Assembly: GCF_038404985.1 (NCBI RefSeq)
Contig: NZ_JBBKBA010000002.1
Location: 930,001-994,000, forward strand
Length of the DNA stretch: 64,000 nt
From: Ferrovibrio sp. MS7
Lineage (GTDB): Bacteria > Pseudomonadota > Alphaproteobacteria > Ferrovibrionales > Ferrovibrionaceae
Direction: 5' to 3'
The notes beneath the pieces are model-generated. The model had not been told where the DNA came from, ran no database searches, and worked only from the letters and a program-made list of their open reading frames with translations. The position numbers and the translations under genes were made by a program. Positions 13,274 to 31,387 of the stretch are shown piece after piece. Within the stretch, counting starts at the first letter, position 1, and every line of letters begins with the position of its first letter.

Positions 13274-13363
13274 ACACCGAGAGTGAGCGGTTAGATATTT
13301 AATGAACTACACTTCTCTGAAGGACTGACGAGTTATTTTTTATCCGCATCGCTTAAATACTGC

Positions 13364-13649: not shown

Positions 13650-15629
13650 GTGATCCTGACGGACAATGAAACCAGGGTTGACCTCCTCAACAACGAGGCG
13701 ATCGCGGCAACCATCATCAAACTCCTCCGCGACCGACCTGATCAGCCGGTCACCGTGGGTGTCCATGGTGATTGGGGCGCAGGCAAATCCAGTGTACTGG
13801 AAATGATCGATGCCGGCTTCAATGGCGAGGCCAAGGTCCTCTGCTTGAAGTTCAACGGTTGGCGCTTCCAGGGATTTGAAGACGCCAAAATCGCCCTCAT
13901 CGAGGGTATCGTCACTGGCCTCATCGAAAAGCGCCCCGCTTTGACCAAGACCGGCGAGGCGGTCAAGGATATCTTTCGACGAATCGACTGGCTCAAGGTC
14001 GCGAAGAAGGCCGGCGGGCTCGCCTTCACCGCTTTCACAGGAATTCCAACACCGGATCAAATTCAGACCATCGTAGGAACGCTGGAAGGTTTCCTCGCCG
14101 ACCCGACGAAACTCGCCAGCAAGGGCAATCTCGAAGCCACCGTCGAAGGCGTGAAGGGCCTGCTGAAGCCGAAGGGTGAAGGCGACTCGACCAATGTCCC
14201 CGAGGAAATCAACGCGTTCCGGAAGGCCTTCGACGACCTCCTCGACAAAGCTGGCGTCGAGCAGCTTGTTGTCCTGATCGATGACCTGGATCGCTGCCTC
14301 CCGGATACCGCGATCGAGACGTTGGAGGCTGTGCGCCTCTTCGTCTTCACGTCGCGCACCGCCTTCGTCGTCGCCGCCGACGAGGCGATGATCGAGTATG
14401 CGGTGCGCAAGCACTTCCCCGATCTGCCAGACACCACCGGCCCACAGACATACGCTCGGAACTATCTTGAAAAGCTCATCCAGGTGCCCTTCCGCATCCC
14501 GGCACTCGGCGACACGGAAACGCGGATTTATGTAACACTCCTCCTCGTCGGCTCAGAACTCGGCGAGGACGATGTCGCCTTCAACGCCTTGATCAAGGTC
14601 GCTCGCGAACGACTGAAGCGCCCCTGGACTTCGGGAGCGCTTGATGCGGCCACGGTAAGAGCCACACTCGGCGACAAGGCTTCGCGCGCCAACAACGCGT
14701 TGGCACTCAGCGATCAGATCGGACCGATTCTAGCGAGCGGCACTAAGGGCAACCCGCGTCAGATCAAGCGGTTTCTCAACACACTAATGCTGCGGCAACG
14801 CACTGCCGAAGCACGGGGGTTCGGCGACGACGTCAAGCTGCCGGTGCTTGCGAAGTTAATGCTTGCCGAGCGGTTTCTCCCACGTCTCTTCGACCAGATT
14901 GCCGCAGCCGCCGCAGCGGCAGCGGACGGAAAATGCCCGGACCTGTCCACGCTCGAAACTGTGGCAACTGCCAAAGCAGACCCGAAACCCGCCGTCAAAC
15001 TGGAGAAGGCCACTGCCAAGGGCACCGATGCCGCGAAGCTGGCGCCCAAACTGGAAGCGGTGAAATTAGCTGACAGCGCGTTGCTGGGCGAATGGTTGTC
15101 GTCCCCCGCGATCAAGGCCTGGGCGGCGGTGCCGACTGCGATCGGCGGCGTGGATCTCCGCCCCTACCTCTTCGTCGCCAAGGACCGGAAGGACTATTTC
15201 GGCGCCGCTTCTGTGCTTGGCCATCTGGCCGGCGTGGTCGAGCAGCTCTTTGGCGGCAAGTTTGCAGTGCAGGGGCTGGAAACAGATCTCAAACGCCTGG
15301 CTTCGCCGGAAGCGGCGCAAATCTTTGAAGCCGTGCGCGGGCGCATCGTCGGGGGTGACAGCTTCGACACCGAACCGCCAGGTGCGGCAGGTCTGGCAGT
15401 TCTCGTGAGGGCTCATCCAACCCTGCAAAGCAGTCTACTCGACTTCCTTGACACTCTCCCACGAGATCGTCTCGGGCCATGGGTATGCAGCGGCTGGGAG
15501 AGTGTTCTGAAGGACGGCGATGCGACCCAGCGCTTCGACCGCCTTCTTCAGACCTGGGGTAAGGAAGGCGGAACGATGCTCAAGGCGACAGCGACCAACG
15601 TTCTTCGAGCTCGCCAGGGAGCGCGCTGA
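13650..15629 (+). CDS. qatA: Qat anti-phage system ATPase QatA (KAP NTPase)
   Basis: The product has 659 residues. It is a KAP-family P-loop NTPase with Walker A GVHGDWGAGKSSVL (Lys46) and Walker B VVLIDDLDRCLPD (about residues 206-218), followed by the KAP-typical region EAVRLFVFTSRTAFVVAADE. KAP proteins are usually membrane-linked, but no strong membrane helix is visible here. In Qat systems this ATPase acts with QatB, QatC and QatD to protect against phages; the molecular mechanism is not established. The GTG start at 13,650 follows GGGGAGG by 6 nt. The stop codon overlaps the qatB start (TGATG), indicating translational coupling. Confidence 0.9.
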   Translation: MILTDNETRVDLLNNEAIAATIIKLLRDRPDQPVTVGVHGDWGAGKSSVLEMIDAGFNGEAKVLCLKFNGWRFQGFEDAKIALIEGIVTGLIEKRPALTKTGEAVKDIFRRIDWLKVAKKAGGLAFTAFTGIPTPDQIQTIVGTLEGFLADPTKLASKGNLEATVEGVKGLLKPKGEGDSTNVPEEINAFRKAFDDLLDKAGVEQLVVLIDDLDRCLPDTAIETLEAVRLFVFTSRTAFVVAADEAMIEYAVRKHFPDLPDTTGPQTYARNYLEKLIQVPFRIPALGDTETRIYVTLLLVGSELGEDDVAFNALIKVARERLKRPWTSGALDAATVRATLGDKASRANNALALSDQIGPILASGTKGNPRQIKRFLNTLMLRQRTAEARGFGDDVKLPVLAKLMLAERFLPRLFDQIAAAAAAAADGKCPDLSTLETVATAKADPKPAVKLEKATAKGTDAAKLAPKLEAVKLADSALLGEWLSSPAIKAWAAVPTAIGGVDLRPYLFVAKDRKDYFGAASVLGHLAGVVEQLFGGKFAVQGLETDLKRLASPEAAQIFEAVRGRIVGGDSFDTEPPGAAGLAVLVRAHPTLQSSLLDFLDTLPRDRLGPWVCSGWESVLKDGDATQRFDRLLQTWGKEGGTMLKATATNVLRARQGAR

Positions 15630-16507
15630 TGGGCACCTCGAGTGCATTTGGCGGCCAGGGCGGCGGGACACCTCTCGTCCCAAGCTGGCTTGGCGATGAC
15701 GGTGCGCCGCCTGCTGCGTCGGGCGGAGCTCTGGACGGTGCGCCAGCGGACGGTGCTGCACCAGCCGCCCCTATGGCACCACCGGTGCGCCCGCCCATAC
15801 CGCCTGCGGCCGATCCCACGCGCTTCTCGGCAGCTCGCAACAATTTCTCGCGTTTCGCCAGCTCCGGCGGCAACGACCGTAGAAGCCTCGGCCGAGCAGT
15901 ATCGCACTATGTGGGCTCATCCTCAGGCGGGGCGCGCACGGCCGCCGCAAGAATGGGATCAGCCCGTGGCGCAGGCAGCCGCTTGCTTGGCTTCCTGTCG
16001 GACGCCGTTACCCGCGGGGCGACCGAAGCCCTTCGGGCGCTGAATCTTGGTGCTCTCGCGGGTCGGCCGATCGAAGAAGTCTTTCTTGGTTTGGCGGACT
16101 ATGTGTGTCCAGACGGTGGTTCGATCGACGAAGGCATCGCACGTGAAGCATTTATCGAGACGATCACCGATCTGGCCGGTGCGGGCATAACCGATCTCGA
16201 CAGCCTCACGACCGATCAGATGCAAGCGGTGTTTGAACTTTACGCTACCAATGCGATCGAAGCGCGGCTCTGCAATGACATCGGAGCGAAGACGATCACT
16301 CTGCCATCGGACAGCCGTGAGGCTGCGCGCGTCCAGGCGCAATTGAGCGACTTCATACAGCGGGGCGTGGCCGATGCGCTCACAAACGCCCGTGCCACTG
16401 CTGCTGCTCTCACACCCAATCGCGTGCTTCAATTTGTTGGTCGCATTTACGAGCAGGCATTTGGGATCTTGCAGAGCATGGGCGACGCGGAGGCAGAAGG
16501 CGCATGA
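15629..16507 (+). CDS. qatB: Qat anti-phage system protein QatB
   Basis: The product has 292 residues. Residues 1-60 are low-complexity Gly/Ala/Pro (SSAFGGQGGG, APAAPMAPPVRPP) and probably disordered. The rest is helical with a Ser/Gly/Ala-rich patch (HYVGSSSGGARTAAARMG). It has no enzymatic motif that I recognise. It is identified by its position between a KAP ATPase and a QueC-like protein, which is the qatB slot, and by its length and N-terminal style. Its role in the defence complex is unknown. It overlaps qatA by one base and qatC by four (ATGA). Confidence 0.8.
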   Translation: MGTSSAFGGQGGGTPLVPSWLGDDGAPPAASGGALDGAPADGAAPAAPMAPPVRPPIPPAADPTRFSAARNNFSRFASSGGNDRRSLGRAVSHYVGSSSGGARTAAARMGSARGAGSRLLGFLSDAVTRGATEALRALNLGALAGRPIEEVFLGLADYVCPDGGSIDEGIAREAFIETITDLAGAGITDLDSLTTDQMQAVFELYATNAIEARLCNDIGAKTITLPSDSREAARVQAQLSDFIQRGVADALTNARATAAALTPNRVLQFVGRIYEQAFGILQSMGDAEAEGA

Positions 16508-17874
16508 GGAGGCACGTCATCATAGGCCGGTACGGCCCCGGCGACCGCAGCCGCGTTCCACTTGGCGATGGAGAAACCCAAACCCGTCTCGACCTGGTTC
16601 TCGGCGACCGGACACTCGATCACGGAATCGGCCGCGCGATAAACGATCTCTCTCGCCTCGGCGTTCACCCCTCCGAAGTTGGAGTGGACATTCTGGTTCT
16701 GGCTGCGCACGTCCATGCTGCCGACACCCGCATTTCGCGAGCGAGCGAATCGCAGGATGGCTGGACACGCGAAATCCGACTGATCGTTCCCGTCGCTGCC
16801 CCCGATAGGTGGACCGCTGTTGCGCCGATATTCGTTCGGATGCTGAACTTCCTCACCGGTGACCACTGGTCGCTTGCGTTCCGCCCGCGGCCACGCAGCT
16901 TCACAAGGGTCGCATCGGCATCACCCGCCAGGCTTATCGGCCCTCCCTTTGATGACTTGGCCCTCTTCTCGGGTGGTCTCGACAGCCTGATCGGCGCGAT
17001 CGATGCACTTGAAAATGGTCGAACGCCGCTTCTGATCAGCCATGCCGGCGAGGGTGCGACCAGCGATGCACAGTCTACTATCTTTGACGCCTTGAAGGCC
17101 CACTATCGCGGCCGCGCCTTCGATCGCTTGCGCCTCTGGATGGCATACCCGAATGACTTCGTTCGTGGTTCAGGCGGAGAGAACACAACCCGTGGAAGGT
17201 CGTTCCTCTTTTTCGCGCTCGGCATCTTTGCCGGTAGCGGCCTCGAGGCCCCCTTCACTCTCAAAGTCCCAGAGAACGGCCTCATAGCCGTCAACGTGCC
17301 ACTCGATCCATTGCGCCTGGGAGCGCTGAGCACACGCACGACCCATCCCTTCTACATCGCCCGCTGGAATGACGCCCTCCATGGGCTCGGCGTGAACGGG
17401 CGAATCGAAAATCCTTACTGGGATAAAACCAAAGGGGAGATGGTGGCGGCCTGTGCCAACGGCGCACTTTTGCGCCGCCTCGTCCCCTCATCGCTATCCT
17501 GCGCAGCTCCGACCAAGGGACGCTGGCAGGGCCTTAGTACACAACATTGCGGTTATTGCCTCCCCTGTCTCATTCGACGGGCAGCACTCGTTGCCGGCCT
17601 CCGCCCCGATCCCGATCCGACCGTCTATACGGTCGACGACCTCACCGCCCGAGCACTCGACACACGCCAATCGGAAGGCGTCCAGATCCGCTCTTTCCAG
17701 CTCGCTATCGAGCGGCTTCGCGCCCGACCGGCACTGGCGCCAATCCTCATCCACAAGCCGGGACCGCTTTTCGATGAATCTCCAGCCCGGCAAGCAGCCC
17801 TTGCCGGCGTCTACCGACGCGGGCTTGAGGAGGTTGGCGCGCTGCTTACGGGCGTGAGGACGCGCCCAGGATGA
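16504..17874 (+). CDS. qatC: Qat anti-phage system QueC-like protein QatC
   Basis: The product has 456 residues. The ATP-pyrophosphatase loop is LFSGGLDSLIGAIDAL (SGGLDS near residues 156-161), as in QueC, the 7-cyano-7-deazaguanine synthase. A C-terminal zinc motif CGYCLPCLIRR (Cys349, 352, 355) is also QueC-like. The long N-terminal 140 residues are specific to QatC. Related deazaguanine-type enzymes act in DNA or protein modification, so a modification step is plausible in Qat; this is inference from the family. Start and stop both overlap the neighbouring qat genes by four bases. Confidence 0.9.
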   Translation: MRRHVIIGRYGPGDRSRVPLGDGETQTRLDLVLGDRTLDHGIGRAINDLSRLGVHPSEVGVDILVLAAHVHAADTRISRASESQDGWTREIRLIVPVAAPDRWTAVAPIFVRMLNFLTGDHWSLAFRPRPRSFTRVASASPARLIGPPFDDLALFSGGLDSLIGAIDALENGRTPLLISHAGEGATSDAQSTIFDALKAHYRGRAFDRLRLWMAYPNDFVRGSGGENTTRGRSFLFFALGIFAGSGLEAPFTLKVPENGLIAVNVPLDPLRLGALSTRTTHPFYIARWNDALHGLGVNGRIENPYWDKTKGEMVAACANGALLRRLVPSSLSCAAPTKGRWQGLSTQHCGYCLPCLIRRAALVAGLRPDPDPTVYTVDDLTARALDTRQSEGVQIRSFQLAIERLRARPALAPILIHKPGPLFDESPARQAALAGVYRRGLEEVGALLTGVRTRPG

Positions 17875-18626
17875 CCAATACCGCTCAAGCTGTCGGCGTG
17901 GATTTCCACTGTCATCTTGACCTTTATCCCGACCATGAAGCCGCCATCGCAAGGGCAGAAGCTGCCCGAATTTACACGCTGACCGTCACGACAACACCCA
18001 AAGCCTGGGTACGCAATCACGAGCTCACGCGCCATACGCGCTTCGTGCGTGCCGCGCTCGGCCTGCACCCGCAGCTTGTCGCAGAGCGCGCCCACGAGCT
18101 ACCGCTCTGGGAGGGGCACTTGTCCGAGACGCGATACGTGGGTGAAGTCGGGCTCGATGCGGGACCACGCTTCTACAAGTCTTTGGATGTCCAAAAGCAT
18201 GTGTTCCGCCGTGTCCTTCGGTGCTGCGCTGAAGCGGGCGGTAAAATTCTCACAGTCCACAGCGTGAGAAGTACTTCACAGGTTCTAGATATGATTGAAG
18301 AACATTTACCACGCGATCGCGGAAGCGTCGTACTACACTGGTTTACAGGCAGCCGCAGCGAGGCCAAACGCGCCGTCTCCCTTGGCTGCTACTTCTCGAT
18401 CAATGCGGAAATGGTTCGAGCAGACCGCGGCCGTGCTCTAGTCGCGGAATTGCCGATCGACCGCATCCTGACCGAAACCGATGGTCCGTTCACGCAGGTC
18501 GACGATCGCCCCAGTGAGCCCGCCGACGTGAAAGCGACGGTCGCCGCGATCGCCGGCCTTTTGAGCCTTTCATCGGACTCGATTACAAATACTGTACGAT
18601 CAAACCTTCGATCCCTGGTTGGCTGA
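17871..18626 (+). CDS. qatD: Qat anti-phage system TatD-like hydrolase QatD
   Basis: The product has 251 residues of the TatD metal-dependent nuclease family. Metal-binding motifs are all present: DFHCHLD (His13, His15), GEVGLDAG, TVHSVRS, LHWFTGS and TETDGPFT. TatD proteins are 3'-5' exonucleases or related phosphoesterases. As the last gene of qatABCD it probably acts on nucleic acid, but the in vivo target is unknown. The start overlaps the qatC stop (ATGA). Nothing on the same strand follows for over 1 kb, so the operon ends here. Confidence 0.9.
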   Translation: MTNTAQAVGVDFHCHLDLYPDHEAAIARAEAARIYTLTVTTTPKAWVRNHELTRHTRFVRAALGLHPQLVAERAHELPLWEGHLSETRYVGEVGLDAGPRFYKSLDVQKHVFRRVLRCCAEAGGKILTVHSVRSTSQVLDMIEEHLPRDRGSVVLHWFTGSRSEAKRAVSLGCYFSINAEMVRADRGRALVAELPIDRILTETDGPFTQVDDRPSEPADVKATVAAIAGLLSLSSDSITNTVRSNLRSLVG

Positions 18627-19660: not shown

Positions 19661-21058
19661 ATGGCCTTTGATGAACGAATTACGAAGCTTTTTGGCACTA
19701 TCGCCTCGGCAAATGGCGCTTTGCATTATGCCGTAGTCGATCATCTTGACCGTGCCGTGTTCCAGTTCGAAGCCGATATGCCAACGGTCGAAATAGTCCG
19801 AGAGGCTATCCACAACTGCCTCGCCATTATGAACCACAACCTCGTGGAGGAGGCAGATGACCAGCCGAACCTTCAAACCCACTACCAAGTTTACAGACGC
19901 CTGAGGGACGCCGGCTGGATAGAAGAAATTCGTGACCGCTTCCGTGTACATGTCAATTTTACCGTCGCCGGGTTGCATACCCTCTCATTTGTAAGAGGTT
20001 TTTCGGAGCAAACACGTCAGAGCTATGGCGGGTCGGTCAAGCTGATCCACGATTCTCTGCACGATGCTCTGGCTGATGCCAACCCTGAAGCTGCCCGGGC
20101 TAATGCCGACAAAGTCATGGAGGCCGCTAACCTCGCTGACCGCATGGCCCGGCATTTCCGCGTGGTTATGTCGACCTTGCGCAAGATCGAAGGAGAGATC
20201 GCTAGGAGTCAGTCGACGGCTGGCGCTGTTGAAGTTTTCTTTAGAGACTTCGTATCCGAGACCCTAATCACAGACTGGGCAACGCTTAAATCGACCAACT
20301 CTCCTTTTCGAGTTCGGGCCGAAATCATCAACTATTGTGAAGCCGCGATCGACTATAGCGGTGTGCGGACCGCACTCGCCCAAGGTCTACTCGACAAAGG
20401 GTTTGTGAAGAGCGAGATCACGGACGCGGTCGAAATCATTACAAGCACTCTCGACAGGATTCGCATGACCTTCGAGGCCGTCGCCGACCTGCAAGAGCGG
20501 ATCGACCGAATGATGGTCAGAGTTCAGACGCGGGTCAACTCCCGCCTTCGCTACCTAGATAGCATTGATGGCACCGAAATGAATGATATCGAAACCTTGC
20601 GTAGAACACTGTCGGACTCAGTCTGGGATCGTGTCAATTTCTCTTCTGGTATAGCACGGCGGAGCAAGACCTACGACCAGGAGGTATTTCGTTTTCCGAA
20701 CATTTCATCCAGGTTCGTTGCAGGCGCAGCGCCGGCCCAGCGTCCAGCCACTGAAGAAGACCTGGCGCTGCAACGCTTGAAGGAGAGATTTGAGAATCTA
20801 GGGCTATTCGACCCACAAGCTATCGGTAAATTTATTCTATCCGAACTGCAGGATAGAAAATCGGCCACATTGTCGGAGCTCCCCGTGAACGGGGCCACTG
20901 ATCTTCTTAACTTAATTGGATTCTATGGCCTCGACCGGGAATCTCTCGCGGCTCTCGAGACTGAGTTCGGAATTTCGGTGCAAAGGCGAGAGGGCAACGA
21001 AGACAACGAGTGGTTCACAGGGTCAGGACGACGCATCGAGATCAAGGACAAGTCATGA
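19661..21058 (+). CDS. jetA: Wadjet anti-plasmid protein JetA
   Basis: The product has 465 residues and is mostly helical. It fits the JetA (kleisin-like, MukF-type) subunit of the Wadjet SMC complex, identified by size, by first position in a jetABCD operon and by sequence style (AFDERITKLFGTIASANGAL near the N-terminus; LDSIDGTEMNDIETLRRTL in the C-terminal half). JetA bridges the SMC ATPase heads and holds the KITE subunit JetB. Wadjet extrudes DNA loops and cleaves small circular DNA such as plasmids. The gene starts at an ATG at 19,661 after an AT-rich leader. Its end overlaps jetB by four bases. Confidence 0.9.
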   Translation: MAFDERITKLFGTIASANGALHYAVVDHLDRAVFQFEADMPTVEIVREAIHNCLAIMNHNLVEEADDQPNLQTHYQVYRRLRDAGWIEEIRDRFRVHVNFTVAGLHTLSFVRGFSEQTRQSYGGSVKLIHDSLHDALADANPEAARANADKVMEAANLADRMARHFRVVMSTLRKIEGEIARSQSTAGAVEVFFRDFVSETLITDWATLKSTNSPFRVRAEIINYCEAAIDYSGVRTALAQGLLDKGFVKSEITDAVEIITSTLDRIRMTFEAVADLQERIDRMMVRVQTRVNSRLRYLDSIDGTEMNDIETLRRTLSDSVWDRVNFSSGIARRSKTYDQEVFRFPNISSRFVAGAAPAQRPATEEDLALQRLKERFENLGLFDPQAIGKFILSELQDRKSATLSELPVNGATDLLNLIGFYGLDRESLAALETEFGISVQRREGNEDNEWFTGSGRRIEIKDKS

Positions 21059-21723
21059 ATGAGGATATTCAGACCTTAGCCGATAAGATCGATCGGACTG
21101 GAGCCGGAGCGGATATGGCATTCATCATGCAATCACTCCTCGATCGACAGTTTTTTATCCAAGGCGATCGCTTCACCGACAAACTCTACGCCATGGCTAG
21201 GGAGAAGTGGCGGGATGTTGAGGCCATTCTCGGTATGATGGGATATCAGGGCATTATGCGAACGGACATCGGCGTAATCGGCTTCCGAATGCGCCCCCTT
21301 GTGCATCCAAGAACGGGCGAGGTAGTCCAGCAGCCGCGCGAACGACGTCTCGATGTGCGCACCACCCTGCTCTTACTAACCTTACGACACCTCTATCATG
21401 CCCGCCGATCGATGGGTGACACAACCGGCGACGATGACGCCACAGGAATCGACGATGTTATAGTTACCAGCGACGAAATTGAAACCGCAATTACCGATAC
21501 CTCGCCACAGCGATCCTATCCCAATACAAAGCAGCTTCGCGATGTGCTCAAGGACTTGGAGTATCATGGCCTCGTCCATGTCGATGCAGAAGCAGAGGAG
21601 CCATTTCTCGTAAAAATCAGACCAACGATTACCATTGTACTGAGCCAAGAAAAGATCGGACTTCTGAAACGCTTCACGGATGAGATGGCGCAACAACGGA
21701 AGATCGAGACAAATAATCAATGA
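21055..21723 (+). CDS. jetB: Wadjet KITE subunit JetB (DUF4194)
   Basis: The ATG at 21,055 overlaps the jetA stop (ATGA) and gives 222 residues. The protein is a DUF4194/MukE-like tandem winged-helix subunit. Typical stretches are MQSLLDRQFFIQGDRFTDKL, LDVRTTLLLLTLRHLYHARR and a C-terminal LKDLEYHGLVHVDAEAEEPF followed by a beta wing. KITE subunits clamp DNA together with the kleisin JetA in the SMC motor. A longer upstream start would lie inside jetA and is unlikely. Stop and jetC start overlap (ATGA). Confidence 0.9.
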   Translation: MNEDIQTLADKIDRTGAGADMAFIMQSLLDRQFFIQGDRFTDKLYAMAREKWRDVEAILGMMGYQGIMRTDIGVIGFRMRPLVHPRTGEVVQQPRERRLDVRTTLLLLTLRHLYHARRSMGDTTGDDDATGIDDVIVTSDEIETAITDTSPQRSYPNTKQLRDVLKDLEYHGLVHVDAEAEEPFLVKIRPTITIVLSQEKIGLLKRFTDEMAQQRKIETNNQ

Positions 21724-24700
21724 ACAGCAATACGCTCGAGCGACTGACAGCAATTAATTGGTATCTTTACCAAGCTGAGGATATCAGATTCGGTCCAATG
21801 ACCGTAATTTTTGGTGGGAATGGCGCCGGAAAAACTGCGCTTCTTGACGCCATCCAGTGCTGCCTCCTGGGTATTGACCATCGTGCCCAAAGACTCAACT
21901 CCAGATCTGAGGATGGCAGTACGGCAAAGCAGCAATCGAGATCTGTACATTCTTATATCCTCGGCAAGGTAAAGGACCGCTACACACGGGAAAGTGCCTA
22001 CAGTTATCTGGCCGCCGGCTATCACTGTCTGGTTACGGGAAAGTACATCACCATCGGTGTCGGAATGAAAGCTTCTATCGAAGACAAGACTGAGGCTGTC
22101 GATGTCAGATTTGTAATCGAGGGCGACCGTCTCCTGGCGAAGGAAGATTTCTCTTATATAAATGGCGATGAGTTCTACGTGCGAGACTGGAAATCGGTGA
22201 AGTCCGCTCTGGATGACGACGATTTCCTGATCCAGACATACACGAAAGCTAAGGATTTTCGGCTGGCGTGGCACCGCATCCTAAACGCAGGACCAGGTGG
22301 CGCCCGTGCTGCCAGTGGCATGTCCGATCAGCGATTTACCCGAGCCTTCCGTCAGGCGCTCAAGTTCGAGACTGGTGCGGTTCGCGATATTTCCGATTTC
22401 ATGCGCACAAACATCTTACCAGACGACGTATTGCCGGTCGGAACTTGGCAAGAACAATATGCGCAATGGAAAGCCATGCTGGACCGACTACGCCGGACCG
22501 AAGCAGAATTTGAGGCAGTCAAGGCAATCGGTCGGGCGGCTCGATCCGCGATAGAAAATGAGATGAATCTAGCGGCCATCGAGTGGCTCAAGATTAGGAT
22601 TCCTCGCCAAACAAAGCAACGTCGAGTTCGCAAGGAGATGATCGCTCGCCGCAAGGCAAAGTGGGAAATCGGACAAATTACCCATGGTATGGCTCGCCTC
22701 GAGAACGAGCGGGATCGAGTGAACCAAGATTTGGGCTCGACAGAGCGACAACTTACCGCGAGCCCAGAAGCTGAACGCGTCCAGAGACTCAAGGAACGCG
22801 GAGAGTATCTTCAGCAGAATCTCGACCGCCTAGATGGGGCAGTTGAAGAGATTCGCGTCGCCATTCTATCCGTTCCCAGGCATGTGAACCGTGCAGTAGA
22901 TATTGGTCTTGATGTCAGTAGCTATGTGAGCGATGCCACTGCGATCATCGACCTTATGGACGGTAGCAAAGCATGGCAGGCCAGATTCGACGACGTGTTC
23001 AATGCCTACGAGTCGCTGCGAACATCTGGATTGATCGAGGCAATCCGAGGCCTAGTAGCGAGGGCGGCTGCCGAAGCCGAAGGACTGAAAAGGGAGGTTG
23101 CGGAACTACAGAGAATGATCGAGTTGGCGAAGGATTCACGAGACCCCGTCCCGAGCCAAGTTAGTAGCGTTATCGATCGGCTAATCGCACGCGGCATCAA
23201 GGCACGCCCCCTATCTGCACTGGTCGATATCAAACCCGAATTCAAGGAATGGCGTAGAACCGTCGAAGGAATTCTCGGCGATATGTGTCATGGAATAGTG
23301 GTCCAACCTGACGATATTGAGGCGGCGGCGGTCGTTGCAAACACAGTAGAGGGAGATCCTATCGTCATCCGGACTAACAAGCTTCCAGTTGGGCACGCCA
23401 AGTTCTCCCAGGGCAGTCTAGCAGAAGTTTGTGTTGTCACCGATTCGTTGGCCAGAGCGGTCATTGAGTATCAAATTGGTCGCATCTTTCGAGTTACGAC
23501 AGAGGCAGAGCTTAAGGAGGTCGATCGAGGGGCGACGATCGATGGTCGACTGGCTTCAGGTATCACGATCCGCCGCGCTCGCCGCTATGGTTACCCTCAG
23601 CTCTTTGGTTCAGGGACCGGACTGATAAAGGAAGTTCTTCAGAAGAAACTTGCAGACATCAATGTCGATCTGCGTCCAGCCAATGCTAAAGTGAAGCTAA
23701 CTCAAGATCTTTTGTCGGGCATTCTCGCTGCATTCGATAAAGTGCCAGCAGATCGGACGGCGGCAAGCCAAGTACTCTGGAATGCTAAAGCGGGACGAGA
23801 GGACCTAGAACGAAATAGTCGAGAACTAGACGCCGCAATGGATGCGATCGATCCTGAACTTGGGAATAAAATTAGTGGCTACAAGAAAGAGCTCGATGGG
23901 ATCAATGGGCAATTGGCGGAGGATAAGAGTAAAAGGAAGGACCTAGAGAAGACTGCATTGGAAGCAGAAACGACCGTCAAAAACTACCTGCCAGAAGTAC
24001 GCAGCATGCTATCGAGAGAACGTCGTATAGCCGCGGACGCCAAACGGGCTGACCTCCTCGATGATCTTGAGTCGGCCATCAAACTTATCACAGACAAGTT
24101 ATCCGACACTGCCAGATTCAACGAAAACTGTGAGGGTTTGATCAAGGAGTATAAACGCGGGCTGGATAGGGCTCGGACTACATTTGCGAATGCCAGGACG
24201 CGGTATCTCGATGCACACGATCCACATGGGATTCCAACCCATGATGATGAACAGCTATCGATTATGCGTCGTCATGCCGCATGGACAGACCGCCGCTGCG
24301 ATGAAATAGAAAATGATATCCTGCGACCGTACAGCGAAGACGTTAGGCGCGCGGCTGATCTGTTCTTGGAGACTACCAGGACAGCATTCTTCGACATGAT
24401 CCTCTTAAAAATTGCCGAGCAGAGACGGGTCCAGAATGACCTCAACGTTAATCTTCGCGGCGCTCAATTCAACGAGATGATCTTCCAGATCACATCGTCT
24501 CCAAATGCACGGCTTAGTGAGTATTTGAACTTAGCTGAACGTGTACGCAGCAACCACAAAATCCTGTCCATGGATTTCATTGAGCAAAACCCTCACCACA
24601 ATGACGTGAAAATTATAAAGCAGATGATGGATATGCTCACTGGCGGGACTACCGATGATGACCCGATCAAGGAGCTGATTGATCCACGGAATTACTACGA

Positions 24701-25157
24701 GTACGACCTCGACATATACAATGCTGCGACTTTTGTGGGAGCGGGTAAGACAAAACCTCTGGGGAAGTTGTCGAATATGATTGGCGATCTCTCAGGTGGC
24801 GAGCGCGAGGCGCCATTTTACATTTGTCTCGGAGTTGCAGTGGCTATGGCATATTTTGGCAGCATGAGCCCAACCGCGCGAATAAATCGGTCAGGCACCA
24901 TCTTGCTAGATGAGGCATTCAACAAGTTTGAACCAATGAACGTTGCCAAGACCATCGAATTCTTTCGGAGAACTGGGCTACAACTCATTTGCGTAGCGCC
25001 CTCAACAAATAAGGCCGTCTACTATGCCAAGATGGACACGGCGATTGTGCTGACTAAGGTATCCAGTAGTAATATCGTCCATATTGAATACGTTAACCTG
25101 AAAGAGAAGGGGCGCAAACTGCTCGAAGGGGAGATGCATAGCGAGGTGACTGCTTGA
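21720..25157 (+). CDS. jetC: Wadjet SMC-like ATPase JetC
   Basis: The product has 1145 residues. Walker A FGGNGAGKTALLDAI (Lys38) stands at the N-terminus. The ABC signature LSGGEREAPF (about 1023-1032) and Walker B GTILLDEAFNKFEP (about 1060-1073) stand at the C-terminus. Between them are two long coiled-coil arms (about 260-430 and 680-830) around a hinge-like globular region (about 500-660), the standard SMC/MukB layout. It is the DNA loop-extruding motor of Wadjet. GC content is lower than the chromosome average, in line with transfer. It overlaps jetB and jetD by four bases each. Confidence 0.95.
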   Translation: MNSNTLERLTAINWYLYQAEDIRFGPMTVIFGGNGAGKTALLDAIQCCLLGIDHRAQRLNSRSEDGSTAKQQSRSVHSYILGKVKDRYTRESAYSYLAAGYHCLVTGKYITIGVGMKASIEDKTEAVDVRFVIEGDRLLAKEDFSYINGDEFYVRDWKSVKSALDDDDFLIQTYTKAKDFRLAWHRILNAGPGGARAASGMSDQRFTRAFRQALKFETGAVRDISDFMRTNILPDDVLPVGTWQEQYAQWKAMLDRLRRTEAEFEAVKAIGRAARSAIENEMNLAAIEWLKIRIPRQTKQRRVRKEMIARRKAKWEIGQITHGMARLENERDRVNQDLGSTERQLTASPEAERVQRLKERGEYLQQNLDRLDGAVEEIRVAILSVPRHVNRAVDIGLDVSSYVSDATAIIDLMDGSKAWQARFDDVFNAYESLRTSGLIEAIRGLVARAAAEAEGLKREVAELQRMIELAKDSRDPVPSQVSSVIDRLIARGIKARPLSALVDIKPEFKEWRRTVEGILGDMCHGIVVQPDDIEAAAVVANTVEGDPIVIRTNKLPVGHAKFSQGSLAEVCVVTDSLARAVIEYQIGRIFRVTTEAELKEVDRGATIDGRLASGITIRRARRYGYPQLFGSGTGLIKEVLQKKLADINVDLRPANAKVKLTQDLLSGILAAFDKVPADRTAASQVLWNAKAGREDLERNSRELDAAMDAIDPELGNKISGYKKELDGINGQLAEDKSKRKDLEKTALEAETTVKNYLPEVRSMLSRERRIAADAKRADLLDDLESAIKLITDKLSDTARFNENCEGLIKEYKRGLDRARTTFANARTRYLDAHDPHGIPTHDDEQLSIMRRHAAWTDRRCDEIENDILRPYSEDVRRAADLFLETTRTAFFDMILLKIAEQRRVQNDLNVNLRGAQFNEMIFQITSSPNARLSEYLNLAERVRSNHKILSMDFIEQNPHHNDVKIIKQMMDMLTGGTTDDDPIKELIDPRNYYEYDLDIYNAATFVGAGKTKPLGKLSNMIGDLSGGEREAPFYICLGVAVAMAYFGSMSPTARINRSGTILLDEAFNKFEPMNVAKTIEFFRRTGLQLICVAPSTNKAVYYAKMDTAIVLTKVSSSNIVHIEYVNLKEKGRKLLEGEMHSEVTA

Positions 25158-26302
25158 ACCCTGAGCTCAAAGCCTTCCTATCTGACCTAATCGATGTCGC
25201 GGACGCCGGTCGGCGCCCGAGCCGACGCCTAGCTCGCGTTTCCATCCCTGTCGAAGCTGAAGACGAAGCCCGCTCCACCTTGGCGAGACTAGAAGCCAAC
25301 GGCATTCTTAAACTGCGGCGAAGCACCGAAGAGCGCCGAATGAATGATTTCGGTATGATCGAGGTCCTTGATGCTGCGGCACTGGCTTCGGTTATTGGAC
25401 ACAGACGGCTGGAAGGAATCTGTCGCGCACTCGAAGCCAGGGTTATGCGGGAATGCCAGATCCTAGACGAACTGCAGAGACAGGCCCTGATCATCCTGAT
25501 AGAGGCCTGGATCTTGGGAAAAGGCGCCTTTGGTATCAGGCTCGGTGACGAGGATCGGGCCGTTCTCGTCATCCGATTCATAGGCGCCATCATCCAGAAT
25601 GAGCATCGCGGCAAAGACATACGGCAGTTTAGCGTCTCGCTCGGCCTCGGCAGCAAGGACTTCGAATCTGTGCGGTCATCGCTACTCCGCATTCTTGGCC
25701 ACCTACTAAGCCTGCCCGAAGGAACCGATATACTCGATGTTCTCGGATTTGTACGCTATGGGAATCCTGTGTTTGTCGGCGGACCAGTTACTATCGACGA
25801 CCGTAAGCTGCCCGCGAACCCCTATCTTGCAATCGCTCCCGAACGAGTAGCGGATTTGCGGTCAGATGTAAGCGCGCGATACCTGCTCTTTATCGAGAAT
25901 CTTCAGTCCTTTCATCGCCAGGTGCGCGAGGTTCGTGATCACGGAATCGTCGTGTTTACCGGAGGCTTTCCTTCCCCGGCTGTGCTCTCCTGCATCCGCA
26001 GTCTGGTCGCAGGCGGTCTGCCAGCCTGGCATTGGGGTGACATTGATGCCGGCGGAGTGACCATATTTCGACGTATCGAAGCTGAGATCGGTGTCCAGCT
26101 CCGACCGCATCTGATGTCAACAAGGTTAGCTAGCCGCGGGGCACCTATGAAGCCGGATCGGCGCCTGTCCGCCATCGCGCAGTCTGACTCCGCCATCGCT
26201 GGCCTTGCGGCCTGGCTGATGGGTCCTGACGCACGAAAGATCGAGCAGGAAAGCCTCCCGCCAGAGTCGCCAATGCCAGCGGTGCCAGAAACGGCCATAT
26301 GA
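25154..26302 (+). CDS. jetD: Wadjet nuclease subunit JetD
   Basis: The product has 382 residues starting at a TTG that overlaps the jetC stop (TTGA). The C-terminal part is a Toprim-like nuclease domain: VFTGGFPSPAVLSCI supplies the first strand and acidic region, and HWGDIDAGGVTIFRRI supplies the DxD motif (about residues 296-311). JetD cuts DNA that the JetABC motor has recognised as small and circular. The N-terminal half (about 1-200) is the DUF3322-like arm that contacts the motor. The gene ends 32 bp from the convergent transposase operon. The rare TTG start may keep nuclease levels low. Confidence 0.9.
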   Translation: MNPELKAFLSDLIDVADAGRRPSRRLARVSIPVEAEDEARSTLARLEANGILKLRRSTEERRMNDFGMIEVLDAAALASVIGHRRLEGICRALEARVMRECQILDELQRQALIILIEAWILGKGAFGIRLGDEDRAVLVIRFIGAIIQNEHRGKDIRQFSVSLGLGSKDFESVRSSLLRILGHLLSLPEGTDILDVLGFVRYGNPVFVGGPVTIDDRKLPANPYLAIAPERVADLRSDVSARYLLFIENLQSFHRQVREVRDHGIVVFTGGFPSPAVLSCIRSLVAGGLPAWHWGDIDAGGVTIFRRIEAEIGVQLRPHLMSTRLASRGAPMKPDRRLSAIAQSDSAIAGLAAWLMGPDARKIEQESLPPESPMPAVPETAI

Positions 26303-26334: not shown

Positions 26335-27231
26335 TTACTTGTCATTTCTCCGCTCCTGTGGACGCACCCACGCAATTGCATCCAACACGCCTTCATCGAG
26401 CACCTCTATATTCTGCTCGCACATAAATTCAGCCACTTGGACCGAGAGAGACCAAATCTCCCCCGTAAGGCCGTCAGTCATATTAATGACCTTATCGCAA
26501 AACTTCTTCGACTTGACTGCTGGCAGTGGACTCAAACCCAGATGCTTCAGGATGCCACCCAGGAAGCGGGCAAACTCGTTGTCCGCCATCCATGGCATCA
26601 ACTTAAATGGTTCCAGACGATTCCCGAGCTGCTGGTCAGACTGAATGGTGCTTAGCGCCAAATCTGTACCAATGACAACAACTGGGATCTCAAGTTCGTT
26701 GGACAGATAGCGAATGGTATTTAGGAATTGCACCCGTTTGTCATGAGGCCTGATTAGCGAATTATGAATCTCATCAATCATCAGCATCTTGATGCCGCTT
26801 TTCGGAAATAGCTTCAGTGTTTGGGCAAGCTTGCGTTCGAACCGCCAAGTTTCCTGGAAAGGAGCATTGATTGAACGCAAAAGGCTACTGAGCAGGGCTT
26901 CGGCTGAGGCATATGGCGGGGACTGAACAATGATGACGGGCCGGTCCTCAGGTACGTCGTCGCCTTCCGTGCTTCTCTGCCTCTCCTTGTTGATCGTATT
27001 CTGGAAGTGTCGGGCAATCGTCGTCTTGCCGCTGTTAGTCTCGCCATACAGCAGCATGCCACGAGGGCGGTGGCTTCTGGGCGCCTGGAGCAGGTCACGA
27101 AGCTTGCGCACCCCCAGGCTGGCCCGCGGATAAGGTATCCAGCAGGGCCGCCGCAGAACATCAAAGTCCCCAGCAAAAAGCGTGGCGCCCGTGCCGGAGA
27201 ATATATCGGTACCCGCATTTGGTTCGGTCAT
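26335..27231 (-). CDS. tnsC: TnsC/TniB-type AAA+ transposition regulator
   Basis: The product has 298 residues of the TniB/TnsC AAA+ family. Walker A is LLYGETNSGKTT (Lys69), Walker B is MLMIDEIHN (Asp153, Glu154), and the sensor-1 area follows in IPVVVIGTDLALS. In Tn7-like elements this ATPase forms filaments on target DNA, links the TniQ target selector to the TnsAB transposase and provides target immunity. It is the last gene of a four-gene leftward operon, and its start overlaps the tnsB stop (27,228-27,231). The size is closer to TniB of Tn5053 than to canonical TnsC (about 550 residues). Confidence 0.9.
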   Translation of the reverse strand: MTEPNAGTDIFSGTGATLFAGDFDVLRRPCWIPYPRASLGVRKLRDLLQAPRSHRPRGMLLYGETNSGKTTIARHFQNTINKERQRSTEGDDVPEDRPVIIVQSPPYASAEALLSSLLRSINAPFQETWRFERKLAQTLKLFPKSGIKMLMIDEIHNSLIRPHDKRVQFLNTIRYLSNELEIPVVVIGTDLALSTIQSDQQLGNRLEPFKLMPWMADNEFARFLGGILKHLGLSPLPAVKSKKFCDKVINMTDGLTGEIWSLSVQVAEFMCEQNIEVLDEGVLDAIAWVRPQERRNDK

Positions 27232-29159
27232 ATTTCCTCCGCCACAGGAAAGTCGTCATCCACCAGGTCGAGTGCCAGGTCACGTGCAAAGGGCTGTGCC
27301 TTGCTGTCGTTATCAACAACCAGTTGCAAGCCAGCAGCCCGCTTATGTGTCTCGGATGGCCTCTTCTGATGGGGCTCCGTAGCTAACGTTGCCCTGCTTC
27401 GCCGCCGGCGCTCGGCATTGCGACGCTCTGATTTGGCCGTTTTGGTTTTCGTTTCGGCTTGTTCGACAAGGCGATCTACTTCCTTATGAGCATCAATATT
27501 ATCTGCCGTGGTGCCATTTCTCCGCCCGAGCTTGGCAGCCAGCTCCCTCGCCCTTTTGTGCTCCCATATGGTTATTGGCTGCATCTGGCGTGTTTCTTCG
27601 TATACCCGGTGATACTCACCTGACCTCGGATCAAGAAACCATATGCAGGAGACATCCCTGGGATCTCGACGCACTTTGAACTTGGCAGAAGACCGCCCTT
27701 CTGTGGCCCGGATATAGGGCGTTAAAGCTTCCGATATGTAGGTGATCGAATCCCAGGAGATGCCGTCCCGCTGAATGGTCCGCTCCGTGAAGGGCAGCAT
27801 CTCAATCGCCAGCCGCGCCGGATCCTCGATCCGATCCTGCAGGCCGACACCTGGCGACCCATCAGAGCCGACAATGCCTGCCTCCCACTTCTCCAGCGGG
27901 GTACAGCCGAGCTCAGTATGAGGACGTTTGTGATAAACATTCACCATCCAATGGCAGAAAAGCTGCTCCAGCTCATCGATATCGAGGACAGCATTCTCTT
28001 CCGAATCATATTCGCCACGCATTCTCGGGTTGGAGAATGTCGTCCCCGGAATATCATGCATGAACGTGTTTATCGTGCCGATGAGGCGTTCAATATGTCC
28101 GCCATAATGCGGATCCCGCACCACCCGCCAGTTCAGATTGCAGCCATACTGCATGACGTTTATCTTATAAACTTCGCTTCTGAAATCAGCGCCATTATCG
28201 GCATGCAGATTTCGCATGAAGCCCCAGACCGGCCAATCGCCATTTACCTTGAGGTCGAGAAGCAGTGATTCTTTCGGCAGGAAGGCCCGCCGGATGCACA
28301 TGCATACCGAGAATGCACTCGGCGCCTCGAATGAAAGGTAGAACCCAACGATCATTCGGCTGAATATGTCGATCGCGACTGTCAGCCAGACCCTCCCAAT
28401 CGGCTCGCGGGATTTCGAGCTGACGACAGTCATATCCAAGAGCGTGTGATCTATCTGGACATAAGCCAGGGGATAATCGGCTCCGGGATAGTGGCCTTTG
28501 ATCTGGTCATACTTATCGGCCGCGGCCTTGGCGCCATGGCGGGCTGCCAGGGCGCGCCTGGGCGGCAATTCCCGCAGACGCCGGCGAAAAGTGTTCAGAT
28601 GCGGTGGAGGAATAGCCAGGTCCGCACATTGTATTGTAAGCCACTTATAAACCTTCTTAACCGAAGGCCGTTTTGGCGACAGGTATATTTCCACGGCCTC
28701 GGCCACCAGCTCTTCCTGCTTGGCACCGAGAAACCGTTTGTGTTTTCGCCGACGGCGTGGCGCAAGATCGGCGAGGAGACGGCGGCTGCAGAACACATCG
28801 ACCCAGCGATACAGTGTTTTGATCCCCAAGCCGCTCTGCTTGTTCACGGCGGCATAGACATCACCGATCTTGCCGGCCTTCTCAGGTGAATCCATGAATT
28901 CAATGATAGGACGAATGATCTCAAAACGGCGGGTGGCTTCAGAGATATCGCCCGGATGGCACATATCCAATGTGCGCGCAGGCTCCGGCGCACTCTCGGG
29001 CAGCTCCGACCAAAGGTTGTCGATGCTCGTCTGAACGGTTTCACCGCTGTCCAGAAACATCACCCTCACAGCCGTCGTGCCGGCCGTACCGACGATCCGG
29101 CAGGGCCGGCCATAGAGATAGGCCTCCGTACCCTTCTTGAAGGTAGCGAGCTGCTTCAT
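27228..29159 (-). CDS. tnsB: TnsB/TniA-type DDE transposase
   Basis: I start at ATG 29,159 (MKQLATFKKGTEAYLYGR) because a GGAA lies about 8 nt upstream; a GTG at 29,255 would add 32 residues and overlap tnsA by 16 bases. The 643-residue protein has an N-terminal helix-turn-helix region, an integrase core with the catalytic triad (Asp in VQIDHTLLD, Asp in LHADNGADF, Glu in HYGGHIERLIGT) and a Mu-type beta-barrel C-terminus. The last 90 residues are Arg/Lys/Glu-rich, probably the TnsC-interacting tail. TnsB binds the terminal repeats and joins transposon 3' ends to target DNA. Confidence 0.92.
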   Translation of the reverse strand: MKQLATFKKGTEAYLYGRPCRIVGTAGTTAVRVMFLDSGETVQTSIDNLWSELPESAPEPARTLDMCHPGDISEATRRFEIIRPIIEFMDSPEKAGKIGDVYAAVNKQSGLGIKTLYRWVDVFCSRRLLADLAPRRRRKHKRFLGAKQEELVAEAVEIYLSPKRPSVKKVYKWLTIQCADLAIPPPHLNTFRRRLRELPPRRALAARHGAKAAADKYDQIKGHYPGADYPLAYVQIDHTLLDMTVVSSKSREPIGRVWLTVAIDIFSRMIVGFYLSFEAPSAFSVCMCIRRAFLPKESLLLDLKVNGDWPVWGFMRNLHADNGADFRSEVYKINVMQYGCNLNWRVVRDPHYGGHIERLIGTINTFMHDIPGTTFSNPRMRGEYDSEENAVLDIDELEQLFCHWMVNVYHKRPHTELGCTPLEKWEAGIVGSDGSPGVGLQDRIEDPARLAIEMLPFTERTIQRDGISWDSITYISEALTPYIRATEGRSSAKFKVRRDPRDVSCIWFLDPRSGEYHRVYEETRQMQPITIWEHKRARELAAKLGRRNGTTADNIDAHKEVDRLVEQAETKTKTAKSERRNAERRRRSRATLATEPHQKRPSETHKRAAGLQLVVDNDSKAQPFARDLALDLVDDDFPVAEEI

Positions 29160-29239
29160 TAATGACGTTCCGCTTGGGTGAGGGAGATCATGGATGACTG
29201 GGAAACCAGGACATCCAGATCGACGGACAGTCTTCCGGT

Positions 29240-29806
29240 CTAGACCAGGTGCCACACTTGAGGAATCGCATAGAGGCGCTCTTCTCTGTTGCCAGCCACC
29301 GCGGCTATCAGTTCAGATACCGGCAAGCGTCCTCGCTTCACGGTGAGCAGCAACCGTGCGCACAGGTCTGGCTTCACCTTCTGGGAACGATACGGGGTAA
29401 GAAAATGCGCATTCCGCGGCATCGGGATGCGAATATGGATTTCTGAGTAGATCTGGAATTCCCAGCCTCGCTCACGGGCAAATTCGCGGGCGGCGTCGAA
29501 GCGAGCAGCGAAGAAGTCCTTCTGCTCCGTCAGTATTTGTCTGGGCTTCACCTCGACTAGCTCTGTATAGCCCGAGGCATGCCGGACTAGGAAGTCGGGG
29601 ACATACTTGGTCTTCCGGCCCCTCTCATTGATAAACCAGACCTTCTCGGGCTGATCCTGTATCTCGGCATCCGGCTCCCGGAACTTGGTGAGCACCACAT
29701 AATCGCGCTCAAGGGTAGACTCGAACTCTATGGGATCGTCACCGTTGGCAACCATCCCGGTAATGCTCTGCCTGCCTGGGCCGATCTTTCTGGCTTTCGC
29801 TCTCAT
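29240..29806 (-). CDS. tnsA: TnsA-type heteromeric transposase endonuclease
   Basis: The product has 188 residues. It carries the restriction-like nuclease core: Glu33 in FESTLERDYV, Asp71 in KYVPDFLV and Glu85-x-Lys87 in LVEVKPR. TnsA cuts the 5' ends of the transposon, so together with TnsB the element should move by cut-and-paste rather than by cointegrate formation. The C-terminal 80 residues form the small helical domain that contacts TnsC. The start overlaps the tniQ stop (29,803-29,806). Confidence 0.92.
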   Translation of the reverse strand: MRAKARKIGPGRQSITGMVANGDDPIEFESTLERDYVVLTKFREPDAEIQDQPEKVWFINERGRKTKYVPDFLVRHASGYTELVEVKPRQILTEQKDFFAARFDAAREFARERGWEFQIYSEIHIRIPMPRNAHFLTPYRSQKVKPDLCARLLLTVKRGRLPVSELIAAVAGNREERLYAIPQVWHLV

Positions 29807-31098
29807 CCATCCGCCTTCTTGGTCTTGGCCAGCGCTTCGCGCAGCACCTGATCCACCCAGGCACCGACATTCTCGCCCGCGTGATGGGCTGCGGCCTTTA
29901 CTGCCGCCCTGGTCGACGGCGAGACGCCATCGAGCTTCCAGTAGCGATGTGTGCCATAAGGTTTGTGCGGCTTCGCCGGCGCGGCCAGATGACGAGCGGC
30001 ATGGAATTTCACCCCGAGGACGCCCCGGAGCGCCTTGTAGGTTGGCTGCTCTCCCTCTGCTTCCAGCTTGCCGGCGGCTACACGAATCTCGTCCGGCTGA
30101 ACATGATGGGTCGAGCCGTTCAGATACCGCATCACTGCCACGGCATAGATGAAAGGTACGTCAACCGGCTGCTTGAACATCATCCAGCGGTGGAACCCTG
30201 CTGCACCGCAGGCCTCGGCAAAGCGATGCGGCCAATCCTGCGCCAGCTGCCAAGCCAGGCCGACCAGGATCAGGCGAGTCCTTGGCGGATAGCGCTCGAT
30301 CTCCTGAAGCCTCGGGATCGCTTCTGCGCGAATGTCAGAGCCCGGGCCCATCAGATAGCGGCGCAATGGCAGAGCATGGCGGCCGGACGCCACCAGGCGG
30401 TAGAGCAGGGCAAATATCCTGAAGAAGAGCACCGGATGCACTGGCCCGGCCTCGCCCATGTGCTGCCAGTCGCCCCGGGCGATCCGCAGCAGACGTCGCT
30501 GAGGCGCCAGGTCATGCTCATCCACCTTGATCGGAGCGATATTCCGGAGGTCGAAGCCGCAATAGCCGCACTTGGCCAAGGAAGCGTTGTTCGGGGCAGC
30601 CTGAGCGCCGATCGAGCTGGAGCAACCGGGGCACCGGTCGACCAGCAGTTGGCGGTGATGGGGGCAGGCAGCCACGAACCCCAGGCGCCACTCGGCCCGG
30701 AAATAGGGCTCCTTGTCGGCCGCCAGGCACGAGGGGCATACCTGCTGGCCAAAGGAGTGATTGGAGTAGATACGGCCGCCTGGTGGCAGCCAGGCTAGAT
30801 TCCCGCCGCCGTCGTCCCTGCCGAAGACAGCGCCTCGCCAGGAGCGCCAGGTGGCCTTCTCCAGGTCGCTACGAGGTACGCCGGTGTGGATCGTCAGGTT
30901 GGCGATCAGATCATCGCATGCATGGCGATCGAGGTCGGCGCCGGCGATGCGCCCACCGGGCAACGCAACGCGATAGAGTTCAGACGGCGATAGTCCATGA
31001 GCCCATGCAAGGCGTGCGAACCAAGAGCCGAAGCTCTCGCTTGGCTGCAACTTCACGCCAACCGGCCATCTGCTCGGCAGCTGCATGGAAGCATCCAT
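29803..31098 (-). CDS. tniQ: TniQ/TnsD-type target selector
   Basis: The product has 431 residues of the TniQ family. The N-terminal domain (LQPSESFGSWFARLAWAHGL) is followed by zinc-ribbon ligands Cys121/124 (CPSC), Cys145 and His148 (CPHH), Cys156/159 (CPGC) and Cys177/180 (CGYC). The last 46 residues (YWKLDGVSPSTRAAVKAAAH to the end) look like a ribbon-helix-helix DNA-binding segment. TniQ/TnsD proteins choose the insertion site; as the element end abuts tRNA-Ser, recognition of the tRNA gene is the likely mode. It is the first gene of the leftward operon, starting about 170 bp from the right end. An alternative ATG lies at 31,086. Confidence 0.9.
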   Translation of the reverse strand: MDASMQLPSRWPVGVKLQPSESFGSWFARLAWAHGLSPSELYRVALPGGRIAGADLDRHACDDLIANLTIHTGVPRSDLEKATWRSWRGAVFGRDDGGGNLAWLPPGGRIYSNHSFGQQVCPSCLAADKEPYFRAEWRLGFVAACPHHRQLLVDRCPGCSSSIGAQAAPNNASLAKCGYCGFDLRNIAPIKVDEHDLAPQRRLLRIARGDWQHMGEAGPVHPVLFFRIFALLYRLVASGRHALPLRRYLMGPGSDIRAEAIPRLQEIERYPPRTRLILVGLAWQLAQDWPHRFAEACGAAGFHRWMMFKQPVDVPFIYAVAVMRYLNGSTHHVQPDEIRVAAGKLEAEGEQPTYKALRGVLGVKFHAARHLAAPAKPHKPYGTHRYWKLDGVSPSTRAAVKAAAHHAGENVGAWVDQVLREALAKTKKADG

Positions 31099-31198: not shown

Positions 31199-31260
31199 GA
31201 ATTGTCAATTAAGGTTGTCGGAATTGTCAATTAACGTGGTGTTTTGTCAACTAACGTGGT
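31199..31260 (-). repeat. Three TnsB-type binding repeats at the right end
   Basis: Direct repeats begin at 31,199, 31,221 and 31,241 on the plus strand, each with the core TTGTCAAYTAA followed by CGTGGT (or GGTTG in the innermost copy). Their spacing of 20-22 bp, about two helical turns, matches arrays of TnsB sites in Tn7 right ends. The outermost copy forms part of the terminal inverted repeat. Confidence 0.8.
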
Positions 31261-31268
31261 TTCCGACA
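31245..31268 (-). repeat. Right terminal inverted repeat of Tn7-like element
   Basis: On the minus strand it begins TGTCGGAAA, continues CCACGTTAGT and ends TGACA, pairing with the left end at 22 of 24 positions. The last base before chromosomal DNA is 31,268. Confidence 0.85.
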
Positions 31269-31296
31269 GTCGCTGTCGTGGTTGGCGACGGGAAGA

Positions 31297-31387
31297 TGGC
31301 GGATGGGGTGGGATTCGAACCCACGATACCCTTTTGGGGTATACGCACTTTCCAGGCGCGCGCCTTCGACCACTCGGCCACCCATCC
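31297..31387 (-). tRNA. tRNA-Ser(GGA)
   Basis: The minus strand reads GGATGGGTGGCCGAGTGG at the 5' end. The anticodon loop CTGGAAA carries GGA, a long variable arm (GTATACCCCAAAAGGGTAT) marks a serine tRNA, and GGTTCGAATCC is the T arm. The acceptor closes with CCCATCC, discriminator G and an encoded CCA. The acceptor stem pairs perfectly over seven base pairs. The 3' end lies 28 bp from the right end of the Tn7-like transposon, so the element sits immediately downstream of the tRNA. Confidence 0.96.

Follow-up and report, generated by a model that had tools for sequence, protein, structure and literature searches.

How does the end of a transposon come to lie 28 bp behind an intact tRNA gene, and which product of the element finds that gene? 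These questions are raised by a locus of the alphaproteobacterium Ferrovibrio sp. MS7, contained in a stretch of 64,000 nucleotides (positions 930,001 to 994,000 of contig NZ_JBBKBA010000002.1), hereafter called the window. Comparison of the locus with its relatives indicates that the element is very probably a Tn7-like transposon of alphaproteobacteria, in which a single TniQ protein directs homing to tRNA genes in the manner of TnsD.

The window element and its right end

The right end of the element occupies positions 31244–31268 on the minus strand; it reads TGTCGGAAACCACGTTAGTTGACAA inwards and terminates with ...TTTCCGACA at position 31268. Positions 31244–31269 form a 26-nt inverted repeat with positions 13363–13388 (92% complementary), which argues that the right end is real, and perfect copies of the right-end 25-mer are also present in two related genomes, G389 and G391. 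The matching inner left end, TGTCGGAAGCCACGTTAGGTGACAA, lies at 13364–13388 on the plus strand. A motif search evaluated against shuffled sequences reveals three TnsB-type repeats on the plus strand at 31202–31259 (31202–31217, 31224–31239 and 31244–31259). Sites resembling TTGTCAAYTAACGTGG with at most 3 mismatches occur four times in the 64 kb, three of them at the right end, where shuffles lead one to expect 0.19, and the three-repeat score of the right end is reached by none of 300 shuffles. The window element thus has TGT...ACA ends together with several TnsB-type repeats.

A spacer of 28 bp, delimited from the sequence (31269–31296), separates this end from the attachment site, a tRNA-Ser(GGA) gene with an encoded CCA at 31297–31387 on the minus strand. 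The gene is intact according to ARAGORN and scores 57.7 bits against Rfam RF00005, so that sequence, ARAGORN and Rfam agree with the original prediction, which placed the end at 31268 with 28 bp between it and the tRNA 3′ end. In the window genome (G000) three such ends are present (at most 3 mismatches), and a comparison of the 3′ flanks of 43 distinct tRNA genes shows that tRNA-Ser(GGA) is the only one with such an end behind it. The chance that an end lies 28–67 bp 3′ of any tRNA gene is approximately 4e-4 (44 tRNA genes, 4.58 Mb genome), which makes chance placement unlikely.

Next to the right end the element carries, on the minus strand, the gene of the proposed target selector, tniQ (29803–31098; 431 aa; Pfam PF06527, 3.9e-26), followed by tnsA (29240–29806; 188 aa; PF08722, 6.5e-15), which is not fused to tnsB, the transposase gene tnsB (27228–29255; 675 aa; PF09299, 9.6e-11, with PF09039 also matched) and the AAA+ ATPase gene tnsC/tniB (26335–27231; 298 aa; PF05621, 7.9e-53). 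The presence of TnsA, TnsB, TnsC and TniQ together, as assigned by Pfam, constitutes a Tn7-like set, and the best PDB matches of TnsB are PseTnsAB (1.6e-56) and Tn6677 TnsB (6.6e-53). A single tns gene set is present within the 101 kb read; the PF06527 profile has one match in the whole genome and reveals no second TniQ in G000. Two cargo systems, both on the plus strand, are located between 13364 and the tns operon. The first is a QatABCD anti-phage operon at 13650–18626 (ORFs 13650–15629, 15629–16507, 16504–17874 and 17871–18626; PADLOC QatA/B/C/D, NCBIfam QatB and QatC), and the second a type I Wadjet system, JetABCD, at 19661–26302 (ORFs 19661–21058, 21010–21723, 21720–25157 and 25154–26302; PADLOC JetA1–D1, Pfam). 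No Cas protein was found by Pfam or PADLOC among the window proteins scanned, a set that does not contain every small ORF. Elsewhere in the window, a terC RNA (RF03067) is present at 51120–51179 on the plus strand (49.8 bits).

Related elements and their insertion sites

Relatives of the window TniQ were collected from genome contigs (6 loci), 385 genomes of the class, 398 of the phylum, 18 of the family (the order comprises the same 18) and 43 of the order of one relative, G105; in all, 905 genomes were searched. Among plasmids, 294 records contain a TniQ match; two of these, from Azospirillum brasilense, were followed, and at least 28 others are 28–29% identical. A scan of viral contigs revealed no relative. 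A full-length TniQ of the window kind is found in 13 elements (the window element and 12 others), with 31–98% identity to the window protein. The TniQ alignment comprises 12 members spanning the same range of identity, to which G409 (39%) was added afterwards. In G398 the TniQ match is flagged for one TAA, and its ORF from ATG is open for 429 codons. A fourteenth site is provided by G389, where an end lies behind tRNA-Ser(GGA); no TniQ was found in this assembly, and the contig holds 24 bp of the end, which cannot distinguish right from left. In G265, with a TniQ of 24% identity, the 3.9 kb locus contains no tRNA gene.

All 14 sites are located 3′ of a tRNA gene, seven of tRNA-Ser(GGA) and seven of tRNA-Gln. 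At tRNA-Ser(GGA) the gap from the CCA to the transposon end measures 28 bp in the window, 30 bp in G400:C86 and G105, 33 bp in G392, 36 bp in G391 and G389, and 65 bp in G211; at tRNA-Gln it measures 28 bp in CP032346, 29 bp in G409, 32 bp in G400:C2, 34 bp in G127, 35 bp in CP059450 and G399, and 67 bp in G398. The fixed offset anticipated for related ends is therefore found as a narrow range, 28–36 bp in 12 of the 14 cases, and a strictly fixed one is ruled out by this spread together with the values of 65 and 67 bp. The sequences of the 14 gaps are all distinct, indicating separate insertions. At every locus ARAGORN detects an intact tRNA gene, which directly adjoins the transposon end in 12 cases, in accordance with the expectation that insertion takes place just past the tRNA and leaves the gene intact. 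In each of the 13 elements with tniQ, this gene is closer to the tRNA than tnsABC, such that the tniQ side faces the tRNA. The case named as refuting tRNA targeting, related elements at tRNA-free sites, was not encountered among the 14 sites of the full-length TniQ kind that were followed. The genome G400 contains two related elements, C86 at tRNA-Ser(GGA) and C2 at tRNA-Gln; in the former, tniQ is inverted relative to tnsABC.

The longer gap in G398 can be accounted for by a previous insertion. From 34 bp on, the 67-bp gap contains TGTTATTTCC together with one repeat, the first of three, and the 33 bp beside the element represent the start of an older TGT... right end, with a score that none of 1000 shuffles attains; the repeats of this older end resume past the other end of the present element. 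This split relic indicates that an older element ended 34 bp from tRNA-Gln and that the present one (C71), which is flanked by the duplication ACAGC, inserted into it, so that the 67 bp was rejected as a counter-example. The 65-bp gap in G211 includes a hairpin-like stretch, and no relic of an older end was recognised in it by eye. In two cases, G105 and CP032346, what lies beside the transposon end is a copy of the tRNA 3′ end, and the intact gene is found at a distance of approximately 8.4 and 7.2 kb, respectively. The arrangement looks like the result of a different integrative element having used that tRNA gene; a later integration is assumed to have displaced the gene. For G105, a reading with a 38-bp gap was dropped in favour of the end located 30 bp from the tRNA 3′ copy and bearing the duplication CCAAC. 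The TGT at 38 bp was assigned to another element as its flank, by a guess based on the reading frame that follows it. In the comparison of the ends of 12 elements, the G105 end was not the one finally used.

Perfect 5-bp target duplications with a matching left end are present at six of the 14 sites: AACAT in G391, TTTAC in G389, ACTTC in the Azospirillum element CP059450, ACAGC in G398, ATTGT in G400:C2 and CCAAC in G105. For G391 and G389 the paired ends come from separate contigs, the left end having been chosen among three and two candidates, respectively, and in G389 its assignment to the tRNA site rests solely on the duplication. Each of two G389 contigs, C47 and C111, leads from a left end into tnsC/tnsB, so that two copies are possible. 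No duplicated left end resembling the right end was found for the window, G392, G400:C86, G211, G127 and CP032346, nor for G399 before the contig end; the G409 contig is too short for this comparison. In the window copy the right end is flanked by GTCGC, the inner left end by ACTGC and a perfect outer left end (G000:C2:913386, approximately 16.6 kb to the left of the window) by GTTGG. No 5-bp duplication joins the right end with either of them, and the partner left end is consequently not proven by duplication; the end at 13364 was rejected as the proven partner on account of this mismatch. The DNA to the left of the outer left end (893–913 kb) gave no BLAST match to the stretches located 3′ of the empty tRNA sites that were fetched from G203, G295, G373, G390 and G393.

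Uninterrupted sites are found in related genomes. Among the loci read in the 18 family genomes, tRNA-Ser(GGA) was seen in 15, and four of these have an end behind it. The BLAST homology of G392 to G390 and G393 starts at most 2 bp from the element boundary, and G390 and G393 are mutually collinear across the G392 insertion site.

Several elements possess extra left ends together with a single right end. These include the ends at 13364 and G000:C2:913386 for the window and those at C120:14030, C120:15941 and C115:661 for G391, where the duplication belongs to an end on another contig. G400:C2 has two left-like ends, the outer of which bears the duplication. An inner left end of the window and one of G391 share the flank ACTGC. 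The multiplicity of left ends suggests accretion or recombination at this side. The window segment 11465–12816 contains addiction-antidote-like and metallophosphoesterase genes, and parts of it recur just inside the left ends of G389 and G391 (approximately 87–89% DNA identity).

TniQ and the choice between two tRNA genes

Only tniQ, tnsA, tnsB and tnsC have counterparts in every one of the ten elements compared. In this comparison the ORFs of at least 80 aa from Azospirillum CP059450, G105 and the window were each used as queries against the nine others, some elements being cut at a fixed length. ORFs matched in part of the elements are mostly antisense to tniQ–tnsABC; the exceptions are two overlapping ORFs of G105 with a match in G399 and, for CP059450, a weak match of QatA. 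From the four genes being the sole ones matched throughout, we infer that recognition of the tRNA gene lies with TniQ. In Tn7, TnsD/TniQ is the member of the tns set that reads the target sequence (PMC2918618). In the mechanism proposed here, TniQ would bind the 3′ portion of the tRNA gene and recruit the TnsC ATPase, and TnsA and TnsB would then integrate the element so that its right end, on the tniQ side, faces the tRNA, in most cases 28–36 bp past the CCA, with duplication of 5 bp of the target. The gene itself would be left intact and the Qat and Wadjet island would gain a safe, conserved address; tRNA homing accounts for this defence island sitting harmlessly behind a tRNA gene.

The window TniQ consists of a core and a C-terminal region, with an HTH-like stretch at residues 331–370 and a nearly invariant RYWKLDG... 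segment in the alignment of 12. The HTH-like stretch aligns with sigma factors at Z scores of 2.2–3.7. A profile match of the window TniQ to a solved TnsD chain, 8v32_J, covers positions 117–181 only; 8v32 is presumably the I-B CAST protein of PMC12585508. The models of the whole protein and of its C-terminal part have low confidence, with pLDDT values of 65 and 64, respectively. The former has no Foldseek match at E ≤ 0.001 and resembles TniQ/TnsD chains weakly (best Z 6.6 over 72 residues). The latter likewise has no match at E ≤ 0.001, its matches at E values above 1 including, among many unrelated chains, 8u12, 5x3t, 2rbf, 7ak7 and 2bsq, which we take to be ribbon-helix-helix proteins. In addition, the Pfam family PSK_trans_fac is matched by five of the 12 TniQ members, with a best E value of 0.028. 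Together these matches give a hint that the modelled C-terminal part may be ribbon-helix-helix-like.

Tn7 generates a 5-bp duplication (–2 to +2), and its TnsD site spans +23 to +58 (PMC2918618). Transferred to the present sites, this span would correspond to the T arm, the acceptor strand and the CCA, which by analogy are the predicted binding site of TniQ. The T-arm bases that are invariant in all targets also occur in six of 40 non-target tRNA genes of G000; they are therefore not the whole determinant, and a target consisting of the T arm only was rejected. Moreover, each of the seven Ser sites belongs to the GGA gene, and the CGA and GCT genes of G000 have very similar 3′ ends. The insufficiency of the T-arm bases and the choice of GGA over CGA and GCT imply that the reading probably extends deeper into the tRNA gene.

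The original prediction had named the tRNA-Ser gene as the target of TniQ. The location 3′ of a tRNA gene is confirmed at all 14 sites and the restriction to tRNA-Ser is not, since tRNA-Gln is used at half of them; a role of TniQ as the reader continues to be the probable interpretation. In a TniQ tree of 13 rows the two target labels, Ser and Gln, show no more clustering than shuffled ones do (values as low are reached in 209 and 216 of 500 shuffles), and the well-supported branches require the target to have changed three times or more. G105 (Ser) and G409 (Gln) are sisters (support 99/97), and the two G400 elements, C86 (Ser) and C2 (Gln), form a pair (95/94). A TniQ tree built earlier, lacking G409 and including an outgroup, forces only one change; in a TnsB+TnsC tree of 12 rows, also without G409, three changes are needed and one is forced, and the G400 elements are unpaired. 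Either TniQ repeatedly switches between two tRNA genes or one protein reads both. The interspersed labels on the TniQ tree and the occurrence in G400 of one element at each gene are the basis for the second possibility, in which a single TniQ lineage would read a determinant common to tRNA-Ser(GGA) and tRNA-Gln and home to either and to no other; this is conceivable, if the less probable reading.

It is rather improbable that the tRNA gene is found by another factor, i.e. a different protein of the element, a guide RNA or a tRNA-bound host factor, with TniQ serving as an adaptor. Short TniQs do serve Cascade, Cas12k or TnsF (PMC10293859), and CRISPR-associated elements and Tn6022 provide precedents of this kind. 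The ORF comparison, which starts at 80 aa, would be compatible with a small ORF, an RNA or a host factor in this role. Against an adaptor role, no ORF besides tniQ–tnsABC is matched in all ten elements, and the conserved C-terminal region is missing in shorter TniQ relatives, which have no tRNA gene nearby. In the elements with a shorter TniQ the match stops at profile position 302–368 of 430, before the C-terminal segment, and tniQ follows tnsC; in all seven, no tRNA gene is present within the 17–20 kb read, a span that would miss a gene lying further off. That the element has no target specificity, its association with tRNA genes reflecting the clustering of islands there or one ancient insertion, is already contradicted and almost certainly wrong: integration at tRNA genes is common (PMC11406308), and the tRNA gene concerned seems to have served something else as well in G105 and A. 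brasilense MTCC4039, but the low chance per end, the location of all 14 sites at tRNA genes, the differing gap sequences and duplications, the use of two tRNA genes and the related genomes with uninterrupted sites all stand against it.

TniQ-directed homing to tRNA genes is accordingly well supported as the preferred reading. It presents a compact four-gene system (tniQ–tnsABC) with sister proteins at different tRNA genes, G105 at Ser and G409 at Gln, which makes the choice of target testable by swaps of domains or residues.

Comparison with known systems

Tn7, which uses attTn7 at glmS, likewise combines TnsA, TnsB and TnsC with a TniQ-domain selector and inserts just past a conserved gene. 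The same end of Tn7 always faces the attachment gene. The window element differs from Tn7 in its tRNA target, in the order tniQ–tnsA–tnsB–tnsC, and in that no TnsE was found among the proteins scanned.

Repeated acquisition of different tRNA genes as attachment sites has been described for Tn7-like elements (PMC11406308), and Benler et al. (2021) reported that Tn7-like elements seem to integrate downstream of tRNAs by means of dedicated selectors, with Wadjet among their cargo as well (PMC8649781). In the text of that paper used for comparison, tRNA-Ser, tRNA-Gln and the offset from the tRNA are not named. The literature searched on Tn7-like or TniQ elements at tRNA-Ser or tRNA-Gln yielded no description of the present family. 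Type V-K CASTs also mostly have tRNA genes as attachment sites (PMC11406308), but find them by a dedicated CRISPR RNA and not by TniQ.

Close parallels are offered by the CAST types I-B2 (PmcCAST) and I-D (CyCAST), in which, as proposed for the window element, a TniQ-family protein, TnsD, homes to a tRNA gene (PMC10293859, PMC11406308). The I-D TnsD directs homing to a position approximately 30–33 nt past a leucine tRNA gene (PMC10293859), and the TnsD proteins of I-B2 and I-D use different tRNA genes (PMC11406308). In these CASTs TnsA and TnsB are fused (PMC11406308), whereas they are separate ORFs in the window. The CASTs further possess a CRISPR-Cas module and a second TniQ, whereas the window element has one TniQ, and the scanned proteins include no Cas protein. 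The targets differ as well, being tRNA-Ser(GGA) and tRNA-Gln in the window family. Homing to tRNA genes by TniQ/TnsD proteins is thus already known from CAST I-B2 and I-D, and the window family appears to be a new lineage of such systems.
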